Shown here: positions 40,883-57,419 of the stretch, one piece after another | How the letters are laid out: each line of letters opens with the position of its first letter | Position numbering within the stretch: the first letter of the stretch is position 1 | Source: Guyparkeria hydrothermalis | GTDB lineage: Bacteria; Pseudomonadota; Gammaproteobacteria; Halothiobacillales; Halothiobacillaceae | Length of the DNA: 64,000 nucleotides | Direction of reading: 5' to 3' | NCBI RefSeq assembly: GCF_023555375.1 | Contig: NZ_JAJSEE010000007.1 | Coordinates: 62,001-126,000, forward strand | Position numbers and translations under genes: made by a program | Notes under the pieces: generated by a model | Seen by the model: only the letters and a program-made list of their open reading frames with translations | Told to the model about the DNA's origin: nothing | The model's database searches: none

Positions 40883-42307
40883 TCATACCGGGACACCTGC
40901 CACCCTCTCCTCGGGCACCCGGGGCAGGGTAACGATGAAGCGCGCGACCCCCTGCGCGGAGCTCGCCGTGACATCACCCCCATGCGCCCGCACGATCGCC
41001 CGAGTGATGGCAAGCCCGAGGCCAAGACCACCGGTCGAGTCCTGATACCTCGGCCTGGCGTCATCCGCACGGTAGAAACGCTCGAATACGCGCGTCAGTT
41101 CCTCCGGGAGAATCGGCTCCCCCGTGTTCTCGACCGAGACCGACACGGTCGAGTCGTGCTCGGCGATGCTTACCCCAACACGGCCGCCTTCGTCGGCATG
41201 CCGGACCGCGTTGGACAGCAGATTGCTGAATGCCCGCCGCAGCATCAGGCGATTACCCCGGACCATGGCCCGCCCCGACGTGATCAGCCGCACGCCCTCC
41301 TCCTCGGCCAAGGCATCGTAGAACTCCAGCAATTCGCTCATTTCCTCGTGCATCCGGATGTCCTGGACCGACGGCAAGGAAAGCCCGTTGTCTGCCTTCG
41401 CGAGGAACAGCATGTCGCCGATCATGCGCGACAGCCGGTCGAGCTCCTCGCTGCTCGAGGCCAGGATCTCCTGATACTCCCTCTGACTGCGGGGCTGTGA
41501 CAGCGCGACCTGGGTCTGCGTGAGCAGATTGCTGACCGGCGTACGCATCTCGTGGGCGAGATCGGAAGAAAAGTTGGACAGCCGCCGGAAGGCCTCCTCG
41601 AGGCGATCGAGCATGCAGTTGAGCTCGTAGGCCAGCCCGGTCAGTTCACGCGGGGCCGCGTCCTCCGGCAGGCGGTGGTTGAGCTGCGATGCCGTGACGG
41701 ACGCTGCCCGCTCCTCGATCAGCCGCAATGGCGCCAGGCCGCGGCGGGTGGCTCGCCAGCCGAGAAAGCCGCTGAGGATGGCGGCGACGGGAATGAAGGC
41801 GGAGAGCGTGCGGCTGTAACGCTCCATGAAGCGCTCGTGGTGATCGATATTGATCGCCGCGACGACGATCATGGGCTTGAAGTCGGGCAGGGCGGGCTGG
41901 ACCGCCTTGACCAGTCCGCGATATCGCGACCCATTGTCCCACCACGAGAAGACTCTCGGCGTCGAGCCGTTGGCCAGGTTACGCAGCTTCTCGCCCGGGA
42001 ACGCGATATCCCCCGGCGACAGGATCGGGTTGCCGTCGGCCGTCTCGACGAACACCTTCAGCTCGGGGTCGCTTCGGAACATATCCACCACGGCACTCTG
42101 CAGGGCGGTCAGCTCCTCGGCCGCCGGCGGACGTTTCAGCAGACGCTCGAGCACATTCACCTTGCTCTGAAGGATGTCGCGGTCCATCTCCACGAAGTGG
42201 CGCTCGACCGCCGTGTGCAGTACCCAGGCGAGTCCCAGCAATACGGAGGAGGACACCAGGACGAACAGCAGGGTCAGGCGGGTGGTAAGGGAGGCAGGAG
42301 GTCTCAT
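40883..42307 (-). CDS. copS: Copper-type sensor histidine kinase (CusS/CopS-like)
   Basis: 474 residues: membrane helix (about 12-34), periplasmic sensor, second helix (about 160-182), HAMP, HisKA with [16 protein letters not shown] (phospho-accepting His near 250), and HATPase with [10 protein letters not shown] and [18 protein letters not shown]. This architecture is the CusS/CopS/PcoS heavy-metal kinase family. The ATG at 42307 overlaps the stop of the response regulator gene (ATGA), so the two are coupled. An open frame continues upstream of this ATG, but it runs antisense-like through the regulator gene and is not coding. It should sense periplasmic copper or silver. Confidence 0.93.
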
Positions 42308-42987
42308 GCGCCCCCCTCGACCTCCATGACGTAACCCATGCCACGGATGGTCCGGATCAGGCGGGTATCGAAGGGTTCGTCGATCTTGCGTCGCAGGCGA
42401 CGTACGGCGACCTCGACCACGTTGGTGTCGCTGTCGAAGTTCATGTCCCAGACCTGGGACGCGATCAGCGAGCGCGGCAGCACCTCGCTCCGGCGGCGCA
42501 TGAATAGTTCGAGCAGCGCGAATTCCTTGGCGGTGAGATCGATGCGCTGCCCCGCCCGGGTCGCCCGATGACCGAGCAGATCCAGCTCCAGATCGGCGAC
42601 CCGCAACGTGGTCGGTTCCGGCTCGACCCGCCCGCGACGCAACAGGGTGCAAACCCGCGCCAGCAGCTCGGAGAAGGCGAACGGCTTGACCAGGTAGTCG
42701 TCCGCGCCCAGCTCGAGACCGCGGACCCGGTCCTCGACCTGGTCGCGGGCGGTCAGAAACAGCACCGGCATGTCGCGGCCACCGCGCCGCAGGGTCTCGA
42801 GGATCTGCCAGCCGTCCATGTTCGGCAACATGACGTCGAGAACAACCAGGTCGTGATGTCCGGTCAGGGCCTGATGCAGTCCCTCCACGCCATCCGTCGC
42901 CAGGTCGACGGTATAACCGGCCTCGGTCAGGCCCTGCTGCAGGTACGTGCCGGTTTTTCGTTCGTCCTCGACGATCAACACCTTCAT
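42304..42987 (-). CDS. copR: Copper-type response regulator (CusR/CopR-like)
   Basis: 227 residues. Receiver domain with D51 in [13 protein letters not shown] as the phosphorylation site, DD at VEDER, Thr and Lys in LFLTARD and LVKPFAF; then an OmpR-type winged HTH ([14 protein letters not shown] ... [18 protein letters not shown]). This is the CusR/CopR/PcoR type. The ATG at 42987 has GGGAG before it; an upstream start is less likely. First gene of a divergent operon facing the Met-rich gene, with a dyad between them that it probably binds. Confidence 0.94.
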
Positions 42988-43046
42988 GCCGTTCTCCCGT
43001 TCGGTCCCAAGGGCATTCTGCCACTGCGTCATGATCCCCGCTCCGG

Positions 43047-43100
43047 ATTACCGAGTTGTAATGTCCCGGTCAGGTTCCGGACAGGCCAGCGGACTAAGGT
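43047..43100 (+). promoter_or_regulatory. Probable CopR box and promoter, copy 1
   Basis: The dyad ATTAC-N6-GTAAT (43047-43062) is followed by CCGGTCAGG, GGACAG and a -10-like GGACTAAGGT (43091-43100). The C of ACTA is 32 bases after the last base of the dyad, exactly as in the promoters at 48601 and 51712. It lies between copR (divergent) and the Met-rich gene at 43171. Confidence 0.65.
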
Positions 43101-43170
43101 CATTCCCAAGAGCGGGGCGAGCAGGTGCCCGCCCCGCGCGATGCTGCATTCTCTCGAACGGAGGCAAACC

Positions 43171-43983
43171 ATGAAAGCACTCTCCAAGACCGTTCTTGCC
43201 CTGTCCATGGGACTCGCCACGACATCCTTTGCCGCCGAGACGCCCCAACCGAACATGCCCGGCGGGATGATGGGCATGGCGAACAGCACGATGCCAATGG
43301 AGCGCATGCAGGAAAACGTCGAGCGCATGCGCTCGCAACTCGACCAGGCCCAGTCCGCCCAGAACGATGAAGAGCGCCGCAAGCTCATGCAGGAGTACAT
43401 GCAGACCGTTCGCGAGACCATGGGCATGGCGGACAGGGCGATGCCCATGGCGCGCATGCAGTCGAACGTCGAGCGGATGCAGTCGCAACTAGAGCGGGCC
43501 CAGTCCGCCCAGAGCGAGGCGGAACGTGACGACGTCATGCAGGAATACATGCAGACCATGCGCGAGAACATGGGCATGGCCCGGCAGATGCAAGGCGGCA
43601 TGAGCCGACAGATGCGAGGGCAATCCCGGCCGGGGGCAACGGAGTACTGCGATCGCGGCCAAGGAACGATGGGTAAGGGCATGATGGGCCGCAGCCCCGG
43701 GGGCCAGGGCATGATGGGCTCGGGCATGATGCACGGCGGCTCGAATCAGGGGGCCATGGGCCCGGGCATGATGGGCCACGGCAAGGGCTCGATGGGCTCG
43801 GGCATGATGGGCTCCGGCATGATGATGGGTCCTGGGATGGGAGCGCGCTGTGCCCAGCAGGGATCGACGCCCGCGCAGTCCGGACCAATGGCCGGCGGGG
43901 CGCCTTCCCGCATCGATCGCCTAGAACGTCAGGTGCAGCAGATGCGCGAGCAGATGCAGCGCATGCAGTCGATGAACGACTGA
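43171..43983 (+). CDS. Exported methionine-rich protein with internal duplication
   Basis: 270 residues with a Sec signal peptide (KALSKTVLALSMGLATTSFA). Residues about 42-85 and 90-133 are a tandem duplication of a Met-rich amphipathic helix unit (MPMERMQENVERMRSQL / MPMARMQSNVERMQSQL, each ending in MQEYMQT). A Gly-Met-rich region follows (GMMG repeats with single His residues), then a C-terminal coiled coil rich in Met and Gln. Thioether ligands of this density suggest periplasmic Cu(I) binding. No enzyme domain is seen. GGAGG lies seven bases before the ATG, and a CopR-type box upstream supports copper induction. Confidence 0.8.
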   Translation: MKALSKTVLALSMGLATTSFAAETPQPNMPGGMMGMANSTMPMERMQENVERMRSQLDQAQSAQNDEERRKLMQEYMQTVRETMGMADRAMPMARMQSNVERMQSQLERAQSAQSEAERDDVMQEYMQTMRENMGMARQMQGGMSRQMRGQSRPGATEYCDRGQGTMGKGMMGRSPGGQGMMGSGMMHGGSNQGAMGPGMMGHGKGSMGSGMMGSGMMMGPGMGARCAQQGSTPAQSGPMAGGAPSRIDRLERQVQQMREQMQRMQSMND

Positions 43984-44137
43984 ATCGCACTCACCCAGGA
44001 AAGGACAGCCCCGCCCTCCACCGCCAATGGCCCCGGTCGTCATCGCGACCACCAGCCGGTGGAGGCGGACGTCGACATGACAGGGGCGCGAGCGTCCACA
44101 CCTCCTCCGCCCCTGCGCCTACATGGAGTGCATTCAA

Positions 44138-45130
44138 ATGAGCCCTGAACGCCTGAAAAAGCTGCTTCTCCCGCTTGCCTTCGCGCTGCCGTTCGGCGGC
44201 GCCCACGGGGCGCCCACGGTGTACATCCCCTTGGGGAGCGGCGACGAAGTCATTGCAGTGGACGCGGCCACCGACGAGATCACCGCCACCTATACGGGGC
44301 TCAAGAATCCGCACGGACTCGTGGCGACCCCGGACGGCGAGTACCTGGTGGCAGGCAGCCTCTCGGAACGGCCGCTGGCCGAAGACGAGGATGCCGAGAC
44401 GCCCAACAGCAAGCTCTATCTCGTCCACCCCGTGCACGGGCACGTAATGATGACCATTCCGGTGGCCGGCTGGACCCATCACGAGGCGATCACCCCCGAC
44501 GGCCGCTACGTGGTGTCCACGCACCCGACCCGCGGCGGGGTTAGCGTCGTGGACCTGCGCGACAACCAGGTGGTCGAAACCATCCAGACGGGGCCGGCGC
44601 CGAATTACACGCTGATGGCACCGAACGGGAAGACTGCCTTCGTCAGCAACAGCGGGAACGGCACCATCAGTGAAATCGACCTGTCCAACTGGACGGTCAA
44701 GCGCACGCTCCAGGGCGGCCCCTCGCCCGAGCATCTGGTGCTGTCGTCGGACGGCCAGACGATCTACGCAACCAACCCCCGTGCCGGCACGATCTCGGCC
44801 GTGTCGGTGGACTCGGGGAAGGTGACCGAATCGTTCCACATCGGTGACGGCCTGCACGGCCTGGACATCGGCGATGACGGAAAGACGCTGTTCGCCAGCG
44901 CCAGAAGCGAGGACAAGCTGGTCGCGATCAACCCGGCCACCGACGAGCGCCGGACGTTGACACTCTCCCCGGCCCCCTACCACCTCGATACCATTCACGG
45001 CACCGGCAAGGTCTACGTCTCCAGCAGCAACCGGCCGGTCATCTGGGTCGTCGATCAGACAACCATGAAGCGGGTCGGCACGATCGACCTGCCTGGGGGC
45101 GAAGCCCACCAGATGGCGGTGGTTCCCTGA
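44138..45130 (+). CDS. Exported YVTN/NHL-type beta-propeller protein
   Basis: 330 residues with a signal peptide (KKLLLPLAFALPFGGAHG). At least six propeller blades can be counted from repeats such as EVIAVDAATDEITATYTGL, GTISEIDLSNWTVKRTLQGG and GTISAVSVDSGKVTESFHIG. YncE-like propellers of this kind are found in the periplasm and often accompany metal-resistance or denitrification genes; the ligand is unknown. The ATG at 44138 was preferred to the one at 44123 because GGAG lies nine bases before it. Confidence 0.85.
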   Translation: MSPERLKKLLLPLAFALPFGGAHGAPTVYIPLGSGDEVIAVDAATDEITATYTGLKNPHGLVATPDGEYLVAGSLSERPLAEDEDAETPNSKLYLVHPVHGHVMMTIPVAGWTHHEAITPDGRYVVSTHPTRGGVSVVDLRDNQVVETIQTGPAPNYTLMAPNGKTAFVSNSGNGTISEIDLSNWTVKRTLQGGPSPEHLVLSSDGQTIYATNPRAGTISAVSVDSGKVTESFHIGDGLHGLDIGDDGKTLFASARSEDKLVAINPATDERRTLTLSPAPYHLDTIHGTGKVYVSSSNRPVIWVVDQTTMKRVGTIDLPGGEAHQMAVVP

Positions 45131-45264
45131 CGCTTCCGGATCGGCGTCCCGGGCAGGCTCGCACCGCCTGCACGAGTCGACGCACCGGCTGATCCGTCGC
45201 GGTGTGACGCGAGAGCCACCACCGGATGCGAGCAACACGATCATTGCACCAACGAGGTTCCGGC

Positions 45265-45957
45265 ATGAGCCACCAACTGCACGCAGAGTATTTCACCGAC
45301 ATCCTGTGCATCTGGGCCTACGGTGCCCAGATCCGGATCGAACAGCTGCAACAGGACTTCGGCGACGAGGTCACCATCACGCCGCGCTATATCCCGCTGT
45401 TTGCCTCCACGGACGAGCGCATCGGAGAAGGATGGCGCGACCAGGGCAGCTTTATCGGCTTCGGCCGACACATCCGCGAGGTGGCGCGTGACTGGGACCA
45501 TGTCGAGGTGCATCCCGATATCTGGACGGGGGATCCGCCTGCCTCGTCTACCAGTGCGCACCTGCTGATCAAGGCGGTACAGCTGCTCGAACAGAATGGC
45601 GAACTGGATCACGCGGAGACAGAGGACTCCCCTTCCGAGGCACTGGCCTGGAACCTGCGAAAGAGCTTCTTTGCAGACAACGCAAACATCGCTCGGCGCG
45701 ACGAGCAGCTCTCCATTGCCACATCGATGGGCCTGCCCATCCCGGCGATCAACGACATGCTGGATTCCGGGCAGGCACACGCAGCCCTGCACGACGACAT
45801 GGAGGCTCAACAGCGCTACCAGGTGGCCGGCAGTCCCACCCTGGTACTCAACGAGGGGCGGCAGCGGCTGTACGGCAACGTGGGCTACCGCATTATCGAG
45901 GCCAACGTTCGCGAACTGCTCCACAACCCCCAGTCAGGTGAGGCGAGTTGGTGCTGA
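45265..45957 (+). CDS. DsbA/FrnE-like thioredoxin-fold protein lacking CxxC
   Basis: 230 residues, no signal peptide. The fold is the FrnE/2-hydroxychromene isomerase branch of DsbA: an N-terminal strand with YFTDILCIWAYG (where DxxCPWCY is usual), a long helical insert, and VAGSPTLVLNEG holding the cis-proline. The active-site CxxC is reduced to CIWA, leaving one Cys (C15), so disulfide exchange by the normal mechanism is unlikely; a glutathione-transferase-like or binding role is possible. Another Cys is the last residue. GAGG precedes the ATG by seven bases. Confidence 0.8.
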   Translation: MSHQLHAEYFTDILCIWAYGAQIRIEQLQQDFGDEVTITPRYIPLFASTDERIGEGWRDQGSFIGFGRHIREVARDWDHVEVHPDIWTGDPPASSTSAHLLIKAVQLLEQNGELDHAETEDSPSEALAWNLRKSFFADNANIARRDEQLSIATSMGLPIPAINDMLDSGQAHAALHDDMEAQQRYQVAGSPTLVLNEGRQRLYGNVGYRIIEANVRELLHNPQSGEASWC

Positions 45958-46130
45958 CACCGATGCGCCCCGCACACTCGATGCGCCGTGTCGACATGTT
46001 CGGCTGGACTTGCCTGTGGCCCGATCCCGACAACGCTGGCGGTAGTTCGCTAGCGTGGTGTCGATGATGGCCCTCCGGTCGGTTATGCCGGCCGGACAAC
46101 AAGCCCACTGACGTCCACAGGGTAGCGGTC

Positions 46131-47081
46131 ATGTCGAATCATGCACGGCACGGCATCCAGGCTCACGGTGATCATCTGCCTTCCAGCGGACCGGGGATGC
46201 TGATCTCGGCCTGGCTGACGGGCACCTACTTCTTCGTCGAGATGGGGATCGGTCTCTGGACCGGCTCCATTGCCGTGATCTCGGACGCCTTCCACACCTT
46301 CTCCGCGGTTGGTGGCGTCCTGGTCGCGATAGTCGCCGCCCGGCTCGCCCACCGTCCGGCTGACGAGGACCATAGCTTCGGCTGGTATCGGGCCGAAATC
46401 ATCGGTGCGTTGGTCAACGGCGGCTTTCTGCTCGCCATGGCCTTGCTGGTGCTGGTGATGGGGGCCATGCGCCTTTCCGATCCGATCGACCTGCCGACGG
46501 GGCCGATGCTCGCCGCAGCCGCCGGCGGGCTTTTGACCGAATTCATATCGTTGGGTTTGATCTGGAAGCAGAGCCGGAGCGATCTGAACGTGAGGGGTGC
46601 GCTGTGGCACATCCTCCAGACCTTCGTGGGCAGCCTGCTCATTATCGTGACGGCGCTGGTAATCCACTTCACGGGCTTTCTCCTCATCGACCCGATCCTC
46701 GGCATGGGGTTCGGCGTGGTCCTGCTCTGGGCGAGTTGGGGCATCCTGCGAGATGCAGCCCATTTGCTGATGGAGGGCACACCGGCTGGCATTGAACTGG
46801 GCGAGGTCGTCGAGGCGCTGGTAGCGCTCGATGGGGTTGCCGACGCCCACCATGTCCATGCCTGGGCACTGACTAGCGGGCGATACGTCTTCTCCGGTCA
46901 CCTGCGAACCGTCGACGGCGTGGACCCGCAGGCCGTGCTGGAGTCTGGTCAGAAGCTACTGAAAGAGCAATTCGGTTTCTTTTTCGTCACGCTCCAGGTG
47001 GAGGCGGCCGCGCTGGACGAGAGCAGCGAGGGGGCTGTCGACGTGACACCCGGGCCGGTGTCGGGCCGGGACGAGCCGTGA
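46131..47081 (+). CDS. Cation diffusion facilitator family protein with altered metal site
   Basis: 316 residues with six membrane helices and a C-terminal CDF cytoplasmic domain (ADAHHVHAWALTSGRYVFSGHL). In CzcD/ZitB-type exporters, helices 2 and 5 each carry HxxxD. Here helix 2 reads SDAFHTFSA (H55, A59; D52 kept) and helix 5 reads LWHILQT (H160, T164), so both Asp ligands are replaced. A His-containing N-terminus precedes helix 1. It may export a metal other than zinc, or use another coordination. Its place in a copper island makes that worth testing. Confidence 0.85.
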   Translation: MSNHARHGIQAHGDHLPSSGPGMLISAWLTGTYFFVEMGIGLWTGSIAVISDAFHTFSAVGGVLVAIVAARLAHRPADEDHSFGWYRAEIIGALVNGGFLLAMALLVLVMGAMRLSDPIDLPTGPMLAAAAGGLLTEFISLGLIWKQSRSDLNVRGALWHILQTFVGSLLIIVTALVIHFTGFLLIDPILGMGFGVVLLWASWGILRDAAHLLMEGTPAGIELGEVVEALVALDGVADAHHVHAWALTSGRYVFSGHLRTVDGVDPQAVLESGQKLLKEQFGFFFVTLQVEAAALDESSEGAVDVTPGPVSGRDEP

Positions 47082-47315
47082 AAACGACCACCCTGACTCA
47101 GACGTGGTCACGCGGACGACGGTGACGGCCGCTGGCCTCCGTGTCGGCCGGATGCAACCCGTCGCCCGGGGCGCCGGCCAACGCGAGCATGCGGGTCTCG
47201 ACCCCGCCACGGACGCGGCAACGGAGCGACCAGGAATCGCCACGGCTCGCGCACCCGGTTCGGCCGCGCGGCAGACAGTGGACCATCCATCGCGGGGAGG
47301 CCAAAAAGCCAGCAC

Positions 47316-48500
47316 ATGGAACACACCGTTCTCACCGGAGTGATCATACTTCTGGCCGCGTCCGTCGTCGGACTGGCCGTATTCGCGCGACTCGGGCTGC
47401 CGGCACTGCTGGCCTATCTGGTCGTGGGCGTCATCGTTGGCCCCCACGGCCTGTCCTGGCTACCGCACACGGCAGACATCCACTTCCTTGGTGAATTCGG
47501 GGTGGTGCTGTTGCTGTTCACGATCGGCCTGGAATTTTCGCTGTCCCAACTGTGGTTGTTGCGAAAACAGGTCTTTGGCGTTGGCGGGGCGCAGGTCTCC
47601 GTCAGCGCCGCCGTCGGTGCCGGCCTGGCGTGGCTGTTTGGCGCTGAACCATCCGCCGCCTTCGTACTGGGCGGCGCCCTGGCGCTTTCCTCCACGGCCG
47701 TGGTCAGCCGGGAGCTGGCCCGCCGGGACGAGATCGGCCAGCCCCATGGCCGGCTATCGGTGTCGGTGTTGATATTCCAGGACCTGGCCGTTGTTCCCTT
47801 TCTGATCCTGATCCCGGTCCTGGGGGGTGATGCGGATACCGGGGCGTGGCAGGCAGTGACTGCGGCGCTCGCTCAGGGTGCGCTGGTCGTCGTACTGATG
47901 CTGGCGACGGGACGCTGGATCTTGCGACCACTGTTCCGCCGTCTGGTTGCCTACGGCTCCCAGGAGATCTTCCGGCTCACGGCGCTGCTGTTCGCCCTGG
48001 CGGCCGCCTGGGTCACCGAATACGCCGGGTTGTCGCTCGCGCTGGGGGCCTTTCTGGCCGGCGCCATGCTGGCGGAAACGGAGCACCGGCAGCAACTACA
48101 AATGGAGATCACCCCGTTCCGCGATGTGCTGCTGGGACTGTTCTTTGTCGTCATCGGCATGATGCTGGATCTGCAGGCCGTCGTGCGCTGGCTGCCCTGG
48201 GTGCTGCTGGCCCTAACCGTGCTTCTGCTCCTCAAAACGCTCACCACGACGCTCCTCGGCCGGATGCTGGGTGTGCCGAGGGGCACGGCCATGCACGCGG
48301 GCATCCTGTTGTCGCAGGGTGGCGAGTTCGGCCTTGTGCTGGCCACGCTGGCGGCGGCGGAAGGCCTCCTCGATGAGGCGGTGGTGCAGGTGATCCTGGC
48401 GACGATCATCCTCAGCATCGCCCTGACCCCGCTGCTCGCCCGATGGGCGGAACCATTGTCAGATCGGCTCTGCTTCGCGCACGGTCCGGCAAATCGATGA
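47316..48500 (+). CDS. KefB/CPA2-type monovalent cation:proton antiporter, short form
   Basis: 394 residues with about 12 helices. LALSSTAVVSREL, SVLIFQDLAVVPFLIL, GLSLALGAFLAGAMLAETEHR and SQGGEFGLVLATLA are the CPA2 signatures. The C-terminal TrkA-N/RCK regulatory domain found in KefB and KefC is missing, so it is a pore-only version. It probably exchanges K+ or Na+ for H+. Not a usual copper gene; its role in the island is unclear. Confidence 0.88.
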   Translation: MEHTVLTGVIILLAASVVGLAVFARLGLPALLAYLVVGVIVGPHGLSWLPHTADIHFLGEFGVVLLLFTIGLEFSLSQLWLLRKQVFGVGGAQVSVSAAVGAGLAWLFGAEPSAAFVLGGALALSSTAVVSRELARRDEIGQPHGRLSVSVLIFQDLAVVPFLILIPVLGGDADTGAWQAVTAALAQGALVVVLMLATGRWILRPLFRRLVAYGSQEIFRLTALLFALAAAWVTEYAGLSLALGAFLAGAMLAETEHRQQLQMEITPFRDVLLGLFFVVIGMMLDLQAVVRWLPWVLLALTVLLLLKTLTTTLLGRMLGVPRGTAMHAGILLSQGGEFGLVLATLAAAEGLLDEAVVQVILATIILSIALTPLLARWAEPLSDRLCFAHGPANR

Positions 48501-48600
48501 TCGGTCCCGGGTGTCGCGCGTCCTCGACGACCAACATCCTCGTGCGGCTCTCCGATCCACGCAGGGCGTACTGCGCCTTCCGAGACCGCTGCCCACCCAG

Positions 48601-48655
48601 ATTACCGCGTTGTAATCCCCGGGTCAGGCACGAGACAGACGGCAGGACTAGGGTT
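48601..48655 (+). promoter_or_regulatory. Probable CopR box and promoter, copy 2
   Basis: ATTAC-N6-GTAAT (48601-48616) differs from copy 1 at a single base in the spacer. GGGTCAGG, GAGACAG and GGACTAGGGT follow, with the same 32-base distance to ACTA. It lies in a 390-base gap (48501-48890) before the CueO-like oxidase. That gap also holds a 60-codon frame from 48733 (after GGGAG) that matches nothing and is probably not a gene. Confidence 0.6.
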
Positions 48656-48890
48656 GGCGATAGGATCCAAGCATCAGGCGCGAGGAGTCTTCATCCGTCC
48701 CGCCTTGATCCTCAGCCAACGGGAGATTCGCCATGAGAGCGCGTTCCAGGACGTTGATCGCCGTCGTCAACGGCGCCGACCATAGGCGACGTTTCCAGCG
48801 GCCCAATGCAAGTGGCCAGGACCCGGCCCAGGGGTGCCAAGACCGACCATCGAGCCGGTTGCCTGATCAGACAATGACGGAGGAGTTGAA

Positions 48891-50393
48891 ATGGATCGAC
48901 GTCGCTTCCTGAAGAACAGTCTCGCCGCAGCAACTGCCGCAACGTGGGGCAGCGCCGCGACCGGAAGGGCCTGGGCGCGCCCGGCAGAGCGCCCGATGTT
49001 GCCCCTGCCCGGCCTGGTCGACGTGGAGAAAAGCGGTCGCCTCGACCTCACCGCACAGCAAGGTAGGCACACCTTTGGCTCAGGCACGGTCTCGTCCACG
49101 CTCGGCTACAATCAGGATTACCTCGGCCCGATCGTCCGGGCACAGCGCGGGCAGGACGTTGCGGTGCGATTGCTGAATGGGCTCGATGAGCCGCTGGCGA
49201 CGCACTGGCACGGCCTGCTCGTCCCGGGTGAGGTCGACGGCGGCCCGCACCAGGCAATTGATCCCGGGGCCGTATGGGAACCCGTTCTTCCGATCGATCA
49301 ACCCCCATCCACCGCATGGTTCCACGCCCATACCCATCCGCACACGGCCAGACAGGTCTACGCGGGACTCGCCGGCGTGTTCCAGATCGACGACGGGCGG
49401 GACGACGAGCGCGGCCTGCCGCACGAGCATGGCGTGGACGACTTCACCCTCGTCATCCAGGACCGGCGCTTCGACCCGTCGGGACGTCTGGACTATCGAC
49501 TGGCCATGATGGACCGAATGCACGGCTTCCGGGGCGACCACATCCTGGTCAACGGCGCCCCCTACCCCCGCGCCCGGATGCCTCGCTCGATCGTCCGCCT
49601 GCGACTGCTGAACGGATCGAATGCCCGCATCTACCACCTACACTTCGACGATGGTCGCCCCATGCACGTCATCGCCAACGACTCGGGCTATTGGCCGAAG
49701 CCGGCGGCAGCCACCGAACTGCGTCTCGCCCCGGGCGAGCGCCTCGAAGTACTGGTCGACTTCCGCGACGGGCGAGAAGCCGAGCTGGTGACCGGCCCCG
49801 ACCAGAACCAGGGCGGCCCGGGGATGATGGGCATGATGAGCGGCCTACGTTCGACCGCTTCTGCGCTTCTCGAAGGCGATATGCCGGTGCTGTCCTTCCA
49901 CCCCGCTGGCGAGAAGGCCAAGGTCGACCGACTGCCAGAGACCATCGACGACGAACTGCCCGCGCCACCGACGGCATTCGCCCGGCGCCGTCACTTCACC
50001 CTCGACATGATGCTCGGCGGCATGCCGATGATGCGCGGCATGATGGGCGGAAGCGGCGGCCCGACCATGGGCATCAACGGCCGACCGTTCGACATGCAGC
50101 GCATCAACGAACAGGTAGGCCTTGGCACGACCGAGCACTGGACCATCGAGAGCAACATGCTGATGCACCCATTCCATATCCACGGGGTGCGTTTCCGGGT
50201 ACTCACCGATGAGGCCGGACGTTCACCGCGGCTGGAGAACCGCGGCTACAAAGACACCGTGCTCGTGGATGGACGCGTCGAGGTTGCCGTGGACTTCACG
50301 CAACCGGCCAGCCGGGAAACACCCTTCATGTACCACTGTCACATCCTGGAGCACGAGGACGCCGGGATGATGGGGCACTTTAACGTTTCCTGA
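48891..50393 (+). CDS. CueO-like multicopper oxidase
   Basis: 500 residues. A Tat signal (DRRRFLKNSLAAATAA) leads three cupredoxin domains. All copper-ligand motifs are there: THWHG (about 105), WFHAHTH, HPFHIHG, and YHCHILEHEDAGMMGHF with the type-1 Met. A moderate Met-rich stretch (GMPMMRGMMGG near 385) stands where CueO has its Cu(I)-binding insert. It should oxidise periplasmic Cu(I) to the less toxic Cu(II). Preceded by a CopR-type promoter. Confidence 0.95.
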   Translation: MDRRRFLKNSLAAATAATWGSAATGRAWARPAERPMLPLPGLVDVEKSGRLDLTAQQGRHTFGSGTVSSTLGYNQDYLGPIVRAQRGQDVAVRLLNGLDEPLATHWHGLLVPGEVDGGPHQAIDPGAVWEPVLPIDQPPSTAWFHAHTHPHTARQVYAGLAGVFQIDDGRDDERGLPHEHGVDDFTLVIQDRRFDPSGRLDYRLAMMDRMHGFRGDHILVNGAPYPRARMPRSIVRLRLLNGSNARIYHLHFDDGRPMHVIANDSGYWPKPAAATELRLAPGERLEVLVDFRDGREAELVTGPDQNQGGPGMMGMMSGLRSTASALLEGDMPVLSFHPAGEKAKVDRLPETIDDELPAPPTAFARRRHFTLDMMLGGMPMMRGMMGGSGGPTMGINGRPFDMQRINEQVGLGTTEHWTIESNMLMHPFHIHGVRFRVLTDEAGRSPRLENRGYKDTVLVDGRVEVAVDFTQPASRETPFMYHCHILEHEDAGMMGHFNVS

Positions 50394-50449
50394 CCGGTAG
50401 GCGGGCTCGCCACTGACATTCACCAACAATCCCGACGGGAGGAACGAAC

Positions 50450-50662
50450 ATGGACTACGCACATTTCATGGGATTCGGAGGCGGCTTCATGTGGATCATC
50501 TGGGTGCTCTTGATCGGAGTCGTCGTCTGGCTGCTTTTCGCCATCTCGCGACAGGATCGCTCCCTGGAATCCCCCAGCCCCAAGGAAATCCTCGACCGGC
50601 GGTATGCGAGAGGCGAGATTGACGACGAGACCTACGAGCGCATGAAAAAGGAGCTTGACTGA
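50450..50662 (+). CDS. Small membrane protein with SHOCT domain
   Basis: 70 residues: one hydrophobic helix (FMWIIWVLLIGVVVWLLFAI) and then the SHOCT motif PKEILDRRYARGEIDDETYERMKKEL. Short SHOCT proteins are frequent next to copper genes; the domain is thought to help oligomerisation. GGGAGG lies before the ATG. It follows the CueO-like oxidase by 56 bases and ends near a terminator. Confidence 0.88.
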   Translation: MDYAHFMGFGGGFMWIIWVLLIGVVVWLLFAISRQDRSLESPSPKEILDRRYARGEIDDETYERMKKELD

Positions 50663-50807
50663 CCCTCCTTGAATCGCTGGACGAGTCTGCGATTCACCAA
50701 TGCCCGTTGGCGATCCAGCAAGGTGGCCACCCGAACCAGATTCGTCTCTGCCAACCAACCTCCCGCCGCACGCCTGGGCGTCCGCATGGCATCGAGCCAC
50801 ATAAAGT

Positions 50808-50836
50808 AGGCCGCCTGAACATCAGGCGGCCTTTTC
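50808..50836 (+). terminator. Rho-independent terminator, possibly bidirectional
   Basis: 11-bp stem AGGCCGCCTGA/TCAGGCGGCCT with a 3-base loop, then TTTT. It separates the SHOCT gene from the convergent Spy-like gene. Confidence 0.85.
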
Positions 50837-50862
50837 TCTCTCAGACGAGGCGATAGTGGCCG

Positions 50863-51555
50863 TCAGTCGGCCCCGAGCGCTTTCTCCATACGCTTATGAG
50901 CCTCGATACGCTCCTCGGCCATCTTCTGCTGAAGATTACCGATCTCGCGCGACTTCTTCTTGATCGCCTCGTAATCCGGCTCGTCGGTCAATTGCAGGCG
51001 ATAGAGCTCCCGCTGCCTCTCCTGCATCTTCTGCATGAGCTCGACCTGCTTGTCGTGCTGCTCCTCCTGAACATCCCGCAGGCGGTCGCGCTGCTGGTCG
51101 GTCAATCGCTGACCGCCCGCACCCCACTCGGGAACATAGCCACCACCATAACCGGGGCCCATCATCCCGGGACCGTAACCACCGCCTTGACCAGGGCCCA
51201 TCATGCCGGGGCCGTAGCCTCGCATCATCATGCCGGGGCCATAGCTACTGCCCCGACCCATCATGCCGGGGCCATAGCCACCGCCGTAACCGGGCCCCAT
51301 CATCCCCGGCTGACAACCACCTCGATAGCCGGGCCCCATCATGCCGGGGCCGTAACCACCACCCGGACCCATCATGCCCGGGCCATAGCCACTGCCGAAG
51401 CCGGGGCCATAAGGCCCGGAACCACCCATCATCCCGGAGCCGTACATGCCTTGCCTCGGCATGTGCTCATCGCTGAGGGCAGCAGGCGCCGCACCGGCGA
51501 CAACAACAGCAAGGGCACAGGCGGACAGTTCGCGAACAAGTCTGACTTTTCTCAT
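50863..51555 (-). CDS. Spy/CpxP-like periplasmic protein with Gly-Pro-Met repeat region
   Basis: 230 residues with a signal peptide (CALAVVVAGAAPAALS). Residues about 38-140 are a low-complexity array of YGPGMMGPG-type units (about ten GMM motifs, with Tyr and a few Arg). The last 90 residues form an LTxxQ-type helical domain (LTDQQRDRLRDVQEEQHDKQ ... LYRLQLTDEPD) like Spy, CpxP and zinc-resistance-associated proteins, which are periplasmic chaperones induced by envelope or copper stress. The Met array probably binds Cu(I). The ATG at 51555 has GGAGG before it. It is transcribed toward the SHOCT gene and away from the cupredoxin. Confidence 0.82.
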   Translation of the reverse strand: MRKVRLVRELSACALAVVVAGAAPAALSDEHMPRQGMYGSGMMGGSGPYGPGFGSGYGPGMMGPGGGYGPGMMGPGYRGGCQPGMMGPGYGGGYGPGMMGRGSSYGPGMMMRGYGPGMMGPGQGGGYGPGMMGPGYGGGYVPEWGAGGQRLTDQQRDRLRDVQEEQHDKQVELMQKMQERQRELYRLQLTDEPDYEAIKKKSREIGNLQQKMAEERIEAHKRMEKALGAD

Positions 51556-51711
51556 GACACTTCTCCCTCCTTCCGGATTGAAGGCCGTTTCGGATCTACG
51601 GAACGACGCCGCCGACCATAGCGATTGCTGTCGCCATAACTCAACGTGGTCAATCCCGCACATTCGAACCTTAGAAGCCCTGCCCGATGCTTCCCACTCC
51701 CCCCAAGCCAT

Positions 51712-51812
51712 CTGACAAAAATGTAATCCGCCGGTCAGGCCGATGACAGAAAACCCGGCTGACAAAAACGTAATCCGTCGGTCAGGCGGGTGACAGGCCA
51801 GCGCACTAAAGT
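51712..51812 (+). promoter_or_regulatory. Tandem CopR-type box and promoter, copies 3 and 4
   Basis: Two units 47 bp apart (GTAAT at 51723 and 51770). Each reads CTGAC-N6-GTAAT, then CCGGTCAGG or TCGGTCAGG, then TGACAG. The second unit leads to GCACTAAAGT with the same 32-base distance as at 43047 and 48601; in the first unit that place reads CTGA, so only the second should be an active -10. The region lies 63 bases before the cupredoxin start and could also serve the divergent Spy-like gene at 51555. Confidence 0.6.
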
Positions 51813-51874: not shown

Positions 51875-52339
51875 ATGAACCGACGACAGACCCTGCTTGC
51901 ACTCGCGCTGATGCCGCTGATGGCGAATGCAGCCGGCAATCATGGCGGCGGCCATCAGGAGACGACCGGCACGGCGGGCGACCCGGCACAGGTGGATCGC
52001 ACCATCGAGGTCACGATGAGTGACCGGATGCGGTTCGACCCGGCGCGGATTGACGTGAAGGCCGGCCAGACCATCCGCTTTGCCGTGAAGAACACCGGCC
52101 AGCAGCCCCACGAAATGGTCATCGGCTCGCTCGACAAGTTGAAAGAGCATGCCGAGAAAATGCGCCGCAACCCCGGCATGAAGCATGAGGAACCCAACAT
52201 GCTGCGGCTGGATGGCGGCGAAACGGGGGAGGTCATCTGGCACTTCGCCTCGCCGGGCGAGGTGGACTTCGCCTGCCTGATACCCGGGCATCTCGAAGCC
52301 GGCATGAAGGGGACCATCGACGTCCAGGCCGCGCCCTGA
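51875..52339 (+). CDS. Periplasmic cupredoxin-like copper protein
   Basis: 154 residues with a signal peptide (QTLLALALMPLMANA). The cupredoxin fold is seen from MRFDPARIDVKAGQTIRFAVKN onward. Type-1 ligands are present: His in QQPHEMVIG and Cys, His, Met in FACLIPGHLEAGMKG. It probably shuttles or stores copper in the periplasm beside CopA. Possible names such as CopI- or AcoP-like were not assigned. GAGGA lies about 10 bases before the ATG. Confidence 0.88.
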   Translation: MNRRQTLLALALMPLMANAAGNHGGGHQETTGTAGDPAQVDRTIEVTMSDRMRFDPARIDVKAGQTIRFAVKNTGQQPHEMVIGSLDKLKEHAEKMRRNPGMKHEEPNMLRLDGGETGEVIWHFASPGEVDFACLIPGHLEAGMKGTIDVQAAP

Positions 52340-52406: not shown

Positions 52407-54329
52407 ATGGACCAGTACGAAACCCTGACCGGGAAGGGCCACTCTCGGCGCCGATTCCTGCGCAACGTCACATCCATGAGCGTCCTGGCGGCGCTGTACG
52501 GCTATGGTGGCGTGAGCCCGGCCCTCGCCTGGCCGCAGGTCGGCAACCATGAAGCCGAGCGCTTGGAGGATGGCGATACCGACATCTTCAACCTGGTGAT
52601 CGATCGCACGCCGATGAAGATCGACGGCAAGCCGGCCAACCCGATCACCGTCAACGGCACCGTGCCGGGACCGGCGATCCGCATGCGCGAGGGCCGCAAC
52701 GTCCGCATCCGGGTGCAGAACAAGCTCGATGAATGGACCTCGATCCACTGGCACGGAATCCTGCTGCCGTTCCAGATGGATGGTGTGCCCGGCGTGACCT
52801 TCGAAGGCATCCCGCCGAAGGACACCTTCGAGTACTACTACCCGCTCAAGCAGGCCGGCACGTACTGGTATCACAGCCACTCGGGCCTGCAGGAACAGCT
52901 GGGACACTACGGCCCGCTGATCGTCGAGCCGGCCGAGCCCGAACCGTTCGACTACGACCGCGACTACGTGATCATGCTGTCGGACTGGACCTTCGAGGAT
53001 CCGCACGACGTCTTCCGCAACCTCAAGGTGGCCGAGGGCTACTACAACTACCAGAAGCGCACCGTCGAGGATCTGCTCGAGGACATTCAGAAGAAGGGCT
53101 GGTCGCAGACCATGCGCGAACGTGCCATGTGGGGCGAGATGCGCATGAGCTCGCGAGACCTGCTCGATGTCACCGGCAGCACTTACACCTATCTGGTCAA
53201 CGGCCGCTCGCCCAACGACAACTGGACCGGCCTGTTCAAGCCGGGCGAGAAGATCCGCCTGCGCGTGATCAACGGTTCGGCGATGAGCTTCTTCGACGTG
53301 AGCGTTCCCGGCCTGAAGATGACCGTGGTGCAGGTCGACGGCCAGAACGTCGAGCCGGTGCCGGTCGACGAGTTCCGCATCGGCGTGGCCGAGACCTACG
53401 ACGTGATCGTCGAGCCGGACGACCAGCAGGCCTACACCATCTTCGCCGAGGCCATGGATCGCAGCGGCTTCGCGGCCGGCACGCTGGCCACCGAGGTCGG
53501 CCTGACCGCCGAGATCCCCGAGCCACGCTCCATCCCGTCGCGCGGCATGGAGGCCATGGGCATGGACATGAGTAACATGGACATGGGTGGCATGGACATG
53601 GGCAACGGCGGCATGGAGATGGGTGACCAGTCCGGTGGCATGGACATGGGCGGCCAGTCATCCGGCATGCAAGGCGACCAGGCCATGAACGGTCAGACGT
53701 CGCATGCCGGCATGGCGATGAACAATGACGATCCCGCCAAGGGCGGCATGAACATGGCCATGGACTCGAAAGGAGGCAAGGCACCCTGGCCGCTGGCCGA
53801 TCGCGACATATCGCACGGTCCGGACGATCATGGCCCCGGCGCGGCGATGGTCGCCCGGAGTCCCGGCAACCGGTTGAACGATCCCGGCATCGGCCTGAAG
53901 AGCACGCCGGAGCACAAGGTGCTCGTCTACGACGACCTCAAGGCACTGGCGCCCTGGCCCGACCCCCGCGAGCCGGAACGCGAGATCGAACTTCATCTCA
54001 CCGGCAACATGGAACGCTACATGTGGTCGTTTGACGGCGAAAAGTTCTCCGAGGTGGACGGCCCGATCCAGTTCCACCATGGCGAACGGCTGCGGCTGAT
54101 CCTGGTGAACGACACCATGATGGATCACCCGATCCACCTGCATGGGATGTGGATGGAGCTCGAGAACCAGCACGGCGATCTGCGGCCACGCAAGCACACC
54201 ATTTCCGTGAAGCCCGGCGAGATGGTCTCCGCGCGGATCACCGCCGACGCCCCGGGGCACTGGGCGTTCCACTGCCACCTGCTCTATCACATGAAGGCCG
54301 GCATGTTCCGCGTCGTATCCGTCGCCTAA
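52407..54329 (+). CDS. copA: Copper-resistance multicopper oxidase CopA/PcoA
   Basis: 640 residues. Tat signal SRRRFLRNVTSMS, then cupredoxin domains with HWHGILLPFQMDGVPG (about 113), YWYHSHSG, HPIHLHGMWMEL and HCHLLYHMKAGMF (about 621). Between domains two and three lies a long Met-rich insert of MDMGGMDMG type (about 385-455), the CopA/PcoA hallmark that binds many Cu(I) ions. It follows the cupredoxin by 67 bases and precedes copB by 21, forming one operon. Confidence 0.96.
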   Translation: MDQYETLTGKGHSRRRFLRNVTSMSVLAALYGYGGVSPALAWPQVGNHEAERLEDGDTDIFNLVIDRTPMKIDGKPANPITVNGTVPGPAIRMREGRNVRIRVQNKLDEWTSIHWHGILLPFQMDGVPGVTFEGIPPKDTFEYYYPLKQAGTYWYHSHSGLQEQLGHYGPLIVEPAEPEPFDYDRDYVIMLSDWTFEDPHDVFRNLKVAEGYYNYQKRTVEDLLEDIQKKGWSQTMRERAMWGEMRMSSRDLLDVTGSTYTYLVNGRSPNDNWTGLFKPGEKIRLRVINGSAMSFFDVSVPGLKMTVVQVDGQNVEPVPVDEFRIGVAETYDVIVEPDDQQAYTIFAEAMDRSGFAAGTLATEVGLTAEIPEPRSIPSRGMEAMGMDMSNMDMGGMDMGNGGMEMGDQSGGMDMGGQSSGMQGDQAMNGQTSHAGMAMNNDDPAKGGMNMAMDSKGGKAPWPLADRDISHGPDDHGPGAAMVARSPGNRLNDPGIGLKSTPEHKVLVYDDLKALAPWPDPREPEREIELHLTGNMERYMWSFDGEKFSEVDGPIQFHHGERLRLILVNDTMMDHPIHLHGMWMELENQHGDLRPRKHTISVKPGEMVSARITADAPGHWAFHCHLLYHMKAGMFRVVSVA

Positions 54330-54350
54330 CGTTTCAGAGGAGCACAATTG

Positions 54351-55139
54351 ATGATCACCAACCGACACCTTTATATGACCGTTGGCGGCCTGATGAGCGC
54401 GACTCTGCTGGCCGTCATGCCCCTCGCCGCCACGGCCGATGGCCAGGCGCCGTTTGCCGTTGAAAAGGGCTGGGCGCCTCCGGTGGGCGACGAGCCGCAT
54501 GGACGATTCCTGATCGATCGTCTCGAATACGCCGCCGGCGACGACGAGGACAGCGTCAACCTCGAGTTCAAGGGGTGGTACGGCGGCGACTACAACCGGA
54601 TCTGGATCGAAGGCGAGGCCGAGGACGTCGTCTCCGGTGGCAGCGGCGGGGCCATCGAGAATCTCGACCTGCTCTACGGCCGACTGATCTCGCCGTACTG
54701 GTCCGTCCAGGCCGGTGTGGGCTACCAACTCGAATACGGCCCAGGGCCCGATCCCGACCGCGGTTACGCCGTGCTCGGCCTGCAAGGTCTCGCCCCCTAC
54801 TGGTTCGAAGTGGACACCAACCTGCGCCTAAGTGAGGACGGCGATGCCTGGGCCGACTTCGAGGCCGAGTACGACTTCCTGCTGACCCAGAGGCTCGTCC
54901 TGCAGCCGCGCTTCGGCACCATGGTCGCCTTCGACGAAGTCGAGGAATTCGGCGTCGGCCAGGGCATCAACAACGTCAAGCTGGGCTTGCGCCTGCGTTA
55001 CGAGATCAAACGCGAGTTCGCACCCTACGTCGGCGTGAGCTGGAACAAGAAGCTCGGCGACACCGCCGACATGGCCGAGGCCGAAGGCGAGGACACCGGT
55101 GACTTCCGGGTGCTCGCCGGCGTGAGGATGTGGTTCTAG
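54351..55139 (+). CDS. copB: Outer-membrane copper-resistance protein CopB/PcoB
   Basis: 262 residues with a signal peptide. The mature part begins with a short version of the N-terminal region and then the CopB barrel signatures: LEYAAGDDEDSVNLEFKGWYGGDYNRIWIEGE, SPYWSVQAGVGYQLEYGP and REFAPYVGVSWNKKLGDTA, ending in VRMWF with terminal Phe. The Met-rich N-terminal stretch of many CopB proteins is absent. ATG at 54351, with GAGGAG eight bases before, was chosen over TTG at 54348. Confidence 0.95.
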   Translation: MITNRHLYMTVGGLMSATLLAVMPLAATADGQAPFAVEKGWAPPVGDEPHGRFLIDRLEYAAGDDEDSVNLEFKGWYGGDYNRIWIEGEAEDVVSGGSGGAIENLDLLYGRLISPYWSVQAGVGYQLEYGPGPDPDRGYAVLGLQGLAPYWFEVDTNLRLSEDGDAWADFEAEYDFLLTQRLVLQPRFGTMVAFDEVEEFGVGQGINNVKLGLRLRYEIKREFAPYVGVSWNKKLGDTADMAEAEGEDTGDFRVLAGVRMWF

Positions 55140-55307: not shown

Positions 55308-57419
55308 ATGAGCCAGGACTCTCCGTCCGTCCATGCGCATCATCACCATGACAGCCGTGAGCATGACCATTCGGGTCACGATCACTCGGGCCATCATGGC
55401 GGCCACCATGGCGGGCATGACCACGGCGCGATGATCGCCGACTTCCGGCGCCGCTTCTGGGTCTCGCTGGCCCTGACGGTGCCGATCCTGCTGCTCTCGC
55501 CGATGATCCAGGGCTTTCTGGGCCTGGAGGCCGCCCTCGACTTCCCCGGCGACCGCTACCTGCTGTTCGCCCTGTCGATCGCGGTGTTCTTCTACGGCGG
55601 CTGGCCGTTCCTCACCGGGCTGGTCTCCGAGCTCCGCGGGAGGGCGCCGGGGATGATGACCCTGATCGCCCTGGCCATCAGCGTGGCCTTCCTCTACTCC
55701 TCGGCCGTGGTCTTCGGCCTGTCCGGACGCATGTTCTTCTGGGAGCTGGCCACCCTGGTCGACGTGATGCTGCTGGGCCACTGGATCGAGATGCGCTCGA
55801 TCATGGGGGCCTCCGGGGCACTGGAGGCACTGGTCAAGTTGATGCCGGCCACCGCCCATCGCCTGACCGACAGCGGTGATACCGAGGACGTGCGCGTCGA
55901 CACCCTCGAAAAAGGCGACCGGGTGCGGATCAAGCCCGGTGAGAAGATCCCCACCGACGGGCTGATCGTCGAGGGCCGCTCGAATCTCAACGAGTCGCTG
56001 CTGACCGGCGAATCCAGGCCCGTGAGCAAGGGACCGGACGACGAGGTCATCGGCGGGGCAATCAACGGTGAGGGCTCCCTGACCATCGAGATCCAGCGCA
56101 CCGGCGAGGCGACCTACCTCGCCCAGGTCATCGAGATGGTGAAGAAGGCCCAGGCCTCGCGCTCGCGCACGCAGGACCTGGCCAACCGCGCCGCCGCCTG
56201 GCTGACCTACATCGCCCTGACGGTGGGGGCGATCACCCTGATCACCTGGCTGATCCTCGGCTACGCCTTCGACTTCTCGCTCGAACGCATGGTCACCGTC
56301 ATGGTGATCACCTGCCCGCACGCCCTGGGACTGGCCATCCCGCTGGTCATCGCGGTATCGACCAGCAAGGCGGCCCGCAACGGCCTGCTGATCCGCGATC
56401 GGGCCGCTTTCGAGCGGGCGCGGAACACCGACGTGTTCGTCTTCGACAAGACCGGCACGTTGACCGAGGGGCGCTTTGGTGTCAGCGACGTGGTGCCCCT
56501 GGGCGACCGCGACGAGAACGAGGTGCTGGCGCTGGCCGCGGCACTCGAGTCCCGATCTGAGCACCCGATCGCCGTGGGCATCACCGAGGCGGCCGCCGAA
56601 CGCGACATCGCGCTGTCGGAGACGAGCGATTTCGAGAACCTGCCCGGTGAGGGGGTGCAGGCGCAGGTGGACGGTGCCAGCGTGCGGATCGTGAGCCCGG
56701 GCTATCTCGAGCGCGAAGGCATCGCCATCGACGACGACCGGATCGAGCGACTCGCCGAGCAGGGCAAGACGGTGGTCTTCGTCCTGGTAGACAACCAGCC
56801 GGCCGGCGCCATCGCCCTGTCGGACATCGTCCGCGAGGTCTCTCGCGAGGCGGTCGACCGGCTCCGAGCCATGGGCATGCAGTGCATGATGCTCACCGGC
56901 GACTCCCAGCCCGTGGCGAAGGCGGTGGCCGACGAGCTGGGGCTGGACGACTTCTTCGCCGAGGTGATGCCCGACCAGAAGGCCACGCGCATCCGCGAGC
57001 TCAAGGAGAAGGGCCTGTCGGTGGCCATGGTGGGCGACGGCGTCAACGACGCCCCGGCGCTGACCGAGGCGGATCTCGGCATCGCGATCGGCGCGGGCAC
57101 CGACGTGGCGGTCGAGTCGGCCGACATCGTGCTGGTCAACTCCGACCCGCGCGACGTCGCCACCGTCACCGAGCTCTCGGCGGCCACCTACCGCAAGATG
57201 ATCCAGAACCTCTGGTGGGCGGCCGGCTACAACATCGTGGCCATCCCGCTGGCCGCGGGCGTGCTCTACGGCGTGGGCTTTCTGATGCCCCCGGCCATCG
57301 GCGCGGCGGTGATGTCGGTCTCCACCATCGTGGTCGCGATCAACGCCAAGCTGCTGGAACGGTTCCAGCCCGCCTCAGGTCCGACCCATGAACGCCGTTT
57401 GGTCGACTCGGCTGCATAG
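55308..57419 (+). CDS. CPH-type P1B copper-transporting ATPase with His-rich N-terminus
   Basis: 703 residues. The N-terminal 40 residues hold about 17 histidines (HHHHDSREHDHSGHDHSGHH) instead of CxxC metal domains. The ion motif in helix 6 is TCPHALGLAIP (about residue 335), which defines the P1B-3 (CopB) group, linked to Cu2+ or Ag+ export. DKTGTLTEG (about 382), SEHP and GDGVNDAPAL are intact. It should pump copper from cytoplasm to periplasm, where the oxidases and CopB act. Not the same protein as outer-membrane CopB despite the shared name in the literature. Confidence 0.95.
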   Translation: MSQDSPSVHAHHHHDSREHDHSGHDHSGHHGGHHGGHDHGAMIADFRRRFWVSLALTVPILLLSPMIQGFLGLEAALDFPGDRYLLFALSIAVFFYGGWPFLTGLVSELRGRAPGMMTLIALAISVAFLYSSAVVFGLSGRMFFWELATLVDVMLLGHWIEMRSIMGASGALEALVKLMPATAHRLTDSGDTEDVRVDTLEKGDRVRIKPGEKIPTDGLIVEGRSNLNESLLTGESRPVSKGPDDEVIGGAINGEGSLTIEIQRTGEATYLAQVIEMVKKAQASRSRTQDLANRAAAWLTYIALTVGAITLITWLILGYAFDFSLERMVTVMVITCPHALGLAIPLVIAVSTSKAARNGLLIRDRAAFERARNTDVFVFDKTGTLTEGRFGVSDVVPLGDRDENEVLALAAALESRSEHPIAVGITEAAAERDIALSETSDFENLPGEGVQAQVDGASVRIVSPGYLEREGIAIDDDRIERLAEQGKTVVFVLVDNQPAGAIALSDIVREVSREAVDRLRAMGMQCMMLTGDSQPVAKAVADELGLDDFFAEVMPDQKATRIRELKEKGLSVAMVGDGVNDAPALTEADLGIAIGAGTDVAVESADIVLVNSDPRDVATVTELSAATYRKMIQNLWWAAGYNIVAIPLAAGVLYGVGFLMPPAIGAAVMSVSTIVVAINAKLLERFQPASGPTHERRLVDSAA

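Follow-up and report, generated by a model that had tools for sequence, protein, structure and literature searches.

Which parts of a copper promoter are read by the regulator CopR, and what places RNA polymerase there? The question is raised by a 64,000-nt stretch of the Guyparkeria hydrothermalis genome (GCF_023555375.1, contig NZ_JAJSEE010000007.1, positions 62,001–126,000), referred to here as the window. Three promoters with the same sequence blocks lie in it, before a Met-rich gene (P1), before a CueO-like multicopper oxidase gene (P2), and before a cupredoxin-CopA-CopB operon, where the array is doubled (P3a and P3b). The blocks form a ladder of four half-sites stepping at 11-bp pitch, followed in three of the four arrays by a -10 hexamer at a fixed distance. 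These are very probably CopR-activated promoters of the housekeeping sigma factor, in which CopR would fill the ladder and replace the -35 element in the class II manner of PhoB.

Half-site ladders in the window, the genome, and the family

The dyad [A/C]T[T/G]AC-N6-GTAAT is present at 43047, 48601, 51712, and 51759. All four arrays continue in a single register as GTAAT-N5-GGTCAGG-N5-GACAG, and they are the sole matches of GTAAT-N5-GGTCAGG on both strands of the window. The original prediction of dyad, GGTCAGG, and GACAG blocks before three genes was therefore borne out by the pattern search. GGTCAGG-N5-GACAG-N8-ACTA was found at three arrays (43068, 48622, and 51780). The distance from dyad to ACTA is identical in these three, as predicted, but it is 30 bases from the end of GTAAT and not 32; GTAAT-N32-ACTA has zero matches. 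ACTA itself, predicted as the -10 element, is in place at the three arrays, but a better reading is a hexamer TANNNT that begins inside it (TAAGGT, TAGGGT, and TAAAGT).

When the G of GTAAT is numbered 0, the inverted arm (ATTAC or CTGAC) stands at -11, GTAAT at 0, GTCAG at +11, GACAG at +22, and TANNNT at +37. Because the blocks fall at 11-bp steps, the four can be read as one half-site ladder. GGTCAGG and GACAG, predicted as blocks beside the dyad, do belong to the signature, but they look like further half-sites and not like separate boxes. CTGAC, the left arm in P3a and P3b, reads exactly as GTCAG on the opposite strand; GTCAG is also close to GTCAT, an arm of E. coli CusR-type boxes (cusC). 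P1 and P2 have the 16-bp inverted repeat ATTAC-N6-GTAAT, with arms of the ATKAC/GTMAT kind and a 6-bp centre, and differ from each other in one of the 16 bases. The inverted repeat of P3a and P3b, CTGAC-N6-GTAAT, is imperfect.

The complete 2.43-Mb genome was scanned with the core TNAC-N6-GTAAT-N6-GTCAG and, as control, with the reversed pattern. Six exact matches and none with one mismatch were found, where about 0.02 exact matches would be expected, as calculated by hand from the window's base composition; the control had no match at up to one mismatch. At up to three mismatches the core stands out little (153 matches versus 118 of the control). Four sites are in the window and two on contig C1, so the genome-wide search proposed for the extended signature found its core confined to six sites in two copper clusters, both of which hold a CopR and copper oxidases. 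GTCAG and GACAG are present in all six arrays, and TANNNT at +37 in five, with P3a as the exception. A -10 at +38 can be ruled out for this genus, as the hexamer lies at +37; the six sites accordingly have two or three mismatches to a +38 pattern.

The two C1 ladders lie beside a second CopRS and precede another CueO-like oxidase and another cupredoxin-CopA-CopB set, respectively. Protein families were called against curated NCBIfam and Pfam cut-offs; two heavy-metal response regulators of the genome exceed the TIGR01387 cut-off of 279.2, with 347.8 and 339.9 bits. These CopR paralogues are 86% identical, the two CueO-like proteins are 75% identical, and clusters C1 and C7 are paralogous. Of the predicted single CopR regulon, the common CopR-type operator stands and the single regulator does not: given two CopR paralogues and six sites, two CopRS systems probably use this operator in common and serve both copper clusters. 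No further regulon member with the core at zero or one mismatch was found in the genome, and looser scans gave only weaker matches.

Within the family, 27 genomes were sampled; CopR scored over the cut-off in eight and in none of the other 19. A ladder is divergent from copR in all eight CopR genomes, six with the exact core and two with one mismatch to it, GTCAT replacing GTAAT. Among the 19 genomes that lack CopR the exact core is absent, and their one-mismatch matches number 14, against 16 for the reversed control; kinship among the family genomes limits the weight of this co-occurrence. Eighteen arrays of the genus, from the eight CopR genomes, were compared, 14 from fetched stretches and four from the window. 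All but one (17) have TANNNT at +37, and 16 have GACAG at +22; the +11 column is not independent, since the search pattern demanded a half-site-like sequence there.

The ladder at other CopR loci and in known promoters

Outside the family, the arrangement was derived from one set of loci and counted in another. The learning set was the first 50 of 80 CopR loci from named genomes, 27 of which were usable (dyad within 300 bp of copR, full flanks). On the side facing away from copR, the bases G, T, C, and A were found at +11 to +14 in 23, 22, 17, and 23 of the 27 loci, G at +22 in 22, G at +26 in 18, A at +39 in 23, and T at +43 in 23. Scored by rule, this side has half-site 3 in 18/27, half-site 4 in 13/27, and a -10 at +38 in 22/27, while the corresponding counts on the side facing copR are 4/27, 4/27, and 1/27.

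With the rules fixed beforehand, 42 CopR loci out of a class-wide sample of 275 genomes were taken as test set; the 26 loci with a dyad were counted, and none of their away-side 76-mers is more than 66% identical to the first set. Half-site 3 was present on the away side in 24, half-site 4 in 23, the -10 at +38 in 23, and all three together in 21 of the 26. Shuffling of the downstream 60 bases gave means of 0.28, 0.73, and 0.73, and never more than five. A was found at +39 in all 26 loci and T at +43 in 25. The claim that GGTCAGG is part of a CopR signature is well supported. What the sequences show is the pattern and its register, its position at two copper clusters, its co-occurrence with CopR, and that it recurs at CopR loci elsewhere.

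Both sides of a dyad are alike in all but the sequence that follows, and they can therefore serve as an internal control. Among the copR-facing sides of both sets pooled, 21 have half-site 3, and 19 of these have a -10 at +37/38; of the 32 that lack half-site 3, only one has it (Fisher p = 3e-11, which is too optimistic given related loci). Away sides have it in 40 of 42 cases with half-site 3 and in 8 of 11 without. Half-site 3 occurs on both sides of one dyad in 17 of the 26 test loci (intergenic regions upstream of copR, L152–L187) versus 2 of the 27 learning loci, pointing to a symmetric divergent promoter of six half-sites when half-site 4 is counted. The full set of 80 loci, which takes in the learning set, has 205 dyad sides. 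Half-site 3 stands at +11 in 39 of them, and in 37 of the 39 it is accompanied by a -10 at +37/38. When the same loci are reversed, 70 dyad sides remain, none of them with half-site 3 and hence none with half-site 3 plus the -10. Adding the -10 to the pattern thus separates likely sites from chance.

Promoters of characterized copper and silver systems are arranged in the same way. E. coli cusC reads ATGAC-N6-GTCAT-N6-GTCAC-N6-ATCAG, with TAAAGT at +38. Three arrays of a Klebsiella plasmid also fit the ladder: silC with TAAAGT at +38, silE with TATAAT, and the array beside pcoS, which we take to be the pcoE position, likewise with TATAAT. These CusR/PcoR/SilR boxes have in common with the window the dyad (ATGAC or GTGAC-N6-GTCAT), GTCAC or GTCAT at +11, and ATCAG or AACAG at +22; they differ in the letters of the half-sites and in the -10, which lies 1 bp further away than in the window genus. 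In E. coli phoA, the one PhoB promoter compared, 11-bp direct repeats (GTCAT/GTCAC) stand 26 and 15 bases before TATAGT, exactly as the last two half-sites do here, but an inverted upstream arm is lacking.

AgrR of Cupriavidus metallidurans binds an inverted repeat, with an in-phase extra direct repeat at some operators only, and changing the promoter-proximal repeat lowered activation (PMC7380067). AgrR dyads are located at -43.5 or slightly upstream, and in contrast to the window promoters the dyad of its own promoter is centred at -43.5; neither a fourth half-site nor a fixed -10 register was found in the accessible part of that description (PMC7380067). Like G. hydrothermalis, Pseudomonas putida has two CopR paralogues, CopR1 and CopR2, which recognise the same sites, and operators of several half-sites: the footprints are 27–47 bp long with several TGACA-like motifs taken as CopR half-sites (PMC12428095). 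Differently from here, no register to the -10 is proposed in the portion seen, and unknown sigma factors or mechanisms are suggested instead (PMC12428095). Positions computed from that paper place the copA1 footprint at about -69 to -23 from the mapped start, a good fit to the ladder, and the copR2 footprint at about -73 to -35, a rough fit. A palindrome is treated in a study of P. paraeruginosa (PMC11195947), and a 16-bp motif is given in a chromatin immunoprecipitation sequencing study of CzcR (PMC13209446). The four-step ladder with a fixed -10 register was not found in the accessible parts of the literature searched, outside which lie the founding CusR, PcoR, and P. syringae CopR footprint papers. 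Judged by their sequence, the window promoters are new examples of a known CopR/CusR-type kind, whose arrangement is described only in part in the literature searched.

Proposed activation and competing explanations

In the proposed mechanism, periplasmic copper would lead CopS to activate CopR, as in the family. CopR protomers would occupy the four half-sites, of which GTAAT, GTCAG, and GACAG share one orientation and the arm ATTAC or CTGAC is inverted. The inverted arm and GTAAT would anchor the array; GGTCAGG is most likely the third CopR half-site and GACAG the fourth, at the -35 place. These two, 11-bp direct repeats fixed at 26 and 15 bases upstream of the -10 as in PhoB-type class II promoters, would stand in for the -35 element, where the regulator would meet sigma and hold RNA polymerase at a promoter without a recognisable -35. 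The two CopR paralogues would serve both copper clusters through one type of operator. CopR occupancy, sigma contact, copper induction, and the sharing between both CopRs are the steps that we infer from the arrangement. Under the PhoB-like account, the dyad centre is at about -53 in the window genus; that of E. coli CusR has a similar value. The window regulator itself can be ruled out as PhoB, and with it a PhoB regulon, as its TIGR02154 score of 180.9 bits is below the cut-off of 296.2.

Several observations weigh against this account. The -10 of the window genus, at +37, is one base nearer than elsewhere, and in the learning set, which is taxonomically mixed, the signal of half-site 4 is weaker (13/27). 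No usable dyad was present in 23 of the 50 learning loci. Of the 42 test loci, 16 lacked a strict dyad in the 300 bp upstream of copR and were excluded before counting; in seven of them a ladder-like array lies at another place in the locus. As 8 of the 11 away sides without half-site 3 keep the -10, the away side alone shows no coupling. The loci share ancestry, so the counts are not independent events. Plasmid pcoA is outside the long register described below: its hexamer TAGATT is at +27, and GTTTC stands where half-site 3 would be. Of the four P. putida footprints, those of copR1 and copA2 lie much further upstream (PMC12428095).

Among the other explanations, the likeliest, although improbable, is that CopR binds the dyad alone. 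Control would then be combined, with a different regulator or a metal co-sensor recognising GGTCAGG and GACAG. GTCAG and GACAG do differ from GTAAT, and they are near-invariant in the window genus while the inverted arm varies. The 11-bp pitch, however, carries on exactly through both blocks, and GTCAT, the arm of published CusR-type boxes, replaces GTAAT in the dyads of two relatives and sits at +11 in many loci. The absence of half-site 3 from all 70 reversed-sequence dyad sides also speaks against it, as does the reduced activation by AgrR when direct repeats are changed (PMC7380067).

Still less probable is an alternative sigma factor, for example an extracytoplasmic function (ECF) sigma of the CorE-like type, reading GGTCAGG as -35 and ACTA as -10. 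The usual gap between -35 and -10 of sigma-70-family factors is 15–17 bases. From GGTCAG to TANNNT the gap is 21 bases, outside the approximately 15–17 of ECF promoters; the -10 is TATAAT at silE and at the pcoE-position array, and the +38 hexamer is of the form (T/C)A...T in 23 of the 26 test loci. Such a factor would have a precedent in P. putida, for whose cop promoters unidentified sigma factors are proposed, typical -10/-35 boxes not being found (PMC12428095). GACAG is ruled out as a sigma-70 -35 element, since it ends 10 bases before the -10. Equally improbable is that the likeness stems from recent duplication of one promoter inside the copper clusters, the blocks being under no constraint of their own: the P1 and P2 dyads are nearly identical, the tandem copy is 36/47 identical, and the clusters are paralogous, but the same register is kept in other genera though the intervening bases differ, which disfavours it.

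Neighbouring genes, the tandem copy, and two possible registers

The features are listed in Table 1. The ladders of P2 and P3b precede copper-handling genes, CueO-like and cupredoxin-CopA-CopB, respectively; the Met-rich gene of P1 is without family match. The cupredoxin also matches NF051440, with 109.3 bits under a cut-off of 280.

Table 1. Promoter elements and genes of the copper cluster, in window coordinates
Feature	Coordinates	Strand	Remark
P1 dyad ATTAC-N6-GTAAT (half-sites 1 and 2)	43047..43062	+	pattern search
P1 half-site 3 GTCAG, within GGTCAGG	43069..43073	+	
P1 half-site 4 GACAG	43080..43084	+	
P1 presumed -10 TAAGGT	43095..43100	+	register common to 17/18 genus arrays
P2 dyad ATTAC-N6-GTAAT	48601..48616	+	
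P2 half-site 3 GTCAG	48623..48627	+	
P2 half-site 4 GACAG	48634..48638	+	
P2 presumed -10 TAGGGT	48649..48654	+	
P3a upstream tandem ladder CTGAC/GTAAT/GTCAG/GACAG	51712..51749	+	without -10
P3b ladder CTGAC/GTAAT/GTCAG/GACAG	51759..51796	+	
P3b presumed -10 TAAAGT	51807..51812	+	
Possible -10 CAGAAT of divergent copRS operon	43015..43020	-	+31 from dyad arm; no half-site 3 on this side
CopS-type sensor kinase	40883..42340	-	TIGR01386 486 bits, cut-off 292.55; 5' end approximate
CopR-type response regulator	42304..42987	-	divergent from P1; TIGR01387 340.3 bits, cut-off 279.2
Met-rich gene behind P1	43171..43983	+	no NCBIfam or Pfam family above cut-off
CueO-like multicopper oxidase behind P2	48891..50393	+	best match CueO NF008205 492.2 bits, below cut-off 525
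Cupredoxin (CopI-like), first gene behind P3b	51875..52339	+	PF00127 42.3 bits, cut-off 21.2
CopA multicopper oxidase	52407..54329	+	TIGR01480 809.8 bits, cut-off 478.95
CopB outer-membrane copper protein	54348..55139	+	PF05275 265.2 bits, cut-off 27
Copper P-type ATPase	55308..57419	+	TIGR01511 621.1 bits, cut-off 397

Genes for the Met-rich protein, a beta-propeller protein, a DsbA-like protein, a cation-efflux transporter, and a member of the Na/H-exchanger family are coded between P1 and P2 (43171–48550). In the second cluster and in seven relatives, the interval from copR to cueO holds a single ladder and none of these genes, so P1 and P2 bracket what looks like an insertion. The second cluster (L029, C1:389000–403000) comprises copRS, the CueO-like oxidase, a small SHOCT-type protein, cupredoxin, CopA, CopB, an amino-acid permease, and its two ladder promoters; a P-type ATPase and a Spy-like protein were not found by tblastn in this region.

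The tandem copy P3a is identical to P3b in 36 of 47 bases and has TGACAA at the place expected for its own -10, which it lacks. The offset of 47 bp corresponds to about 4.5 helical turns and so puts P3a on roughly the opposite face of the helix from P3b. Only single arrays were seen at the six orthologous promoters of copA operons (five from relatives, one the C1 paralogue). With these features, the predicted role of the tandem copy in stronger or cooperative activation is unsupported so far; P3a looks like a local duplication. Transcribed away from the tandem ladder is a Met-rich gene with GPGMMG repeats and the Pfam domain Metal_resist (PF13801) at 50863–51555 on the minus strand, which we take to be Spy/CpxP-like. 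Its counterpart in L148 lies beside a single ladder, and as L148 is the sole relative in which the gene was confirmed, the tandem copy as a device for this divergent gene is a weakened candidate. An in-frame query with the Spy-like gene gave no match in L145.

The copRS-facing side of the dyad has no half-site 3 in any of nine genus arrays. An element TGGCAGAAT or TGGCAAACT sets a -10-like hexamer there at +31 in two arrays or at +32 in seven, and this hexamer may be the copRS -10 in a shorter register. Within the element, TGGCA[GA]A[AC]T, the hexamer is CAGAAT in 7/9 and CAAACT in 2/9 (43015–43020 on the minus strand; L029 and L145–L151). Upstream of plasmid pcoA (L197), two dyad-like arrays lie near each other, and TAGATT at +27 of the nearer one is 11 bases closer than the -10 of silC and silE. 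Among 43 sides without half-site 3, 12 have a -10 at +27 or +32, which is suggestive only.

Regulators of the CopR/CusR/SilR/PcoR type may follow one promoter grammar with two registers, a generalization to which we give slightly better than even chances. The constant would be a regulator half-site 26–27 bases before the -10 and a weaker one 15–16 bases before it. In the long register, the dyad would be shifted upstream by one half-site and linked to the -10 by two additional direct half-sites, as at cusC, silC, silE, the pcoE-position array, and the window promoters. In the short register, the dyad arm itself would occupy the 27-base place, as at pcoA, some copRS promoters, and the promoter of AgrR itself. 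Two genes transcribed divergently from one dyad could thereby use different registers; many Gammaproteobacteria would instead have a symmetric array of six half-sites, with the long register on either side.

With the ladder, the loosely defined 16-bp copper box becomes a promoter rule that has a direction and suggests the activated side of a dyad, the location of the start, and the gene content of a metal regulon. Two published puzzles can also be read simply in these terms, the varying distance of AgrR dyads and the P. putida cop promoters without typical -10 and -35 boxes. The register rule is the part worth testing; if true, it would explain why the P. putida promoters seemed to need an unknown sigma factor.

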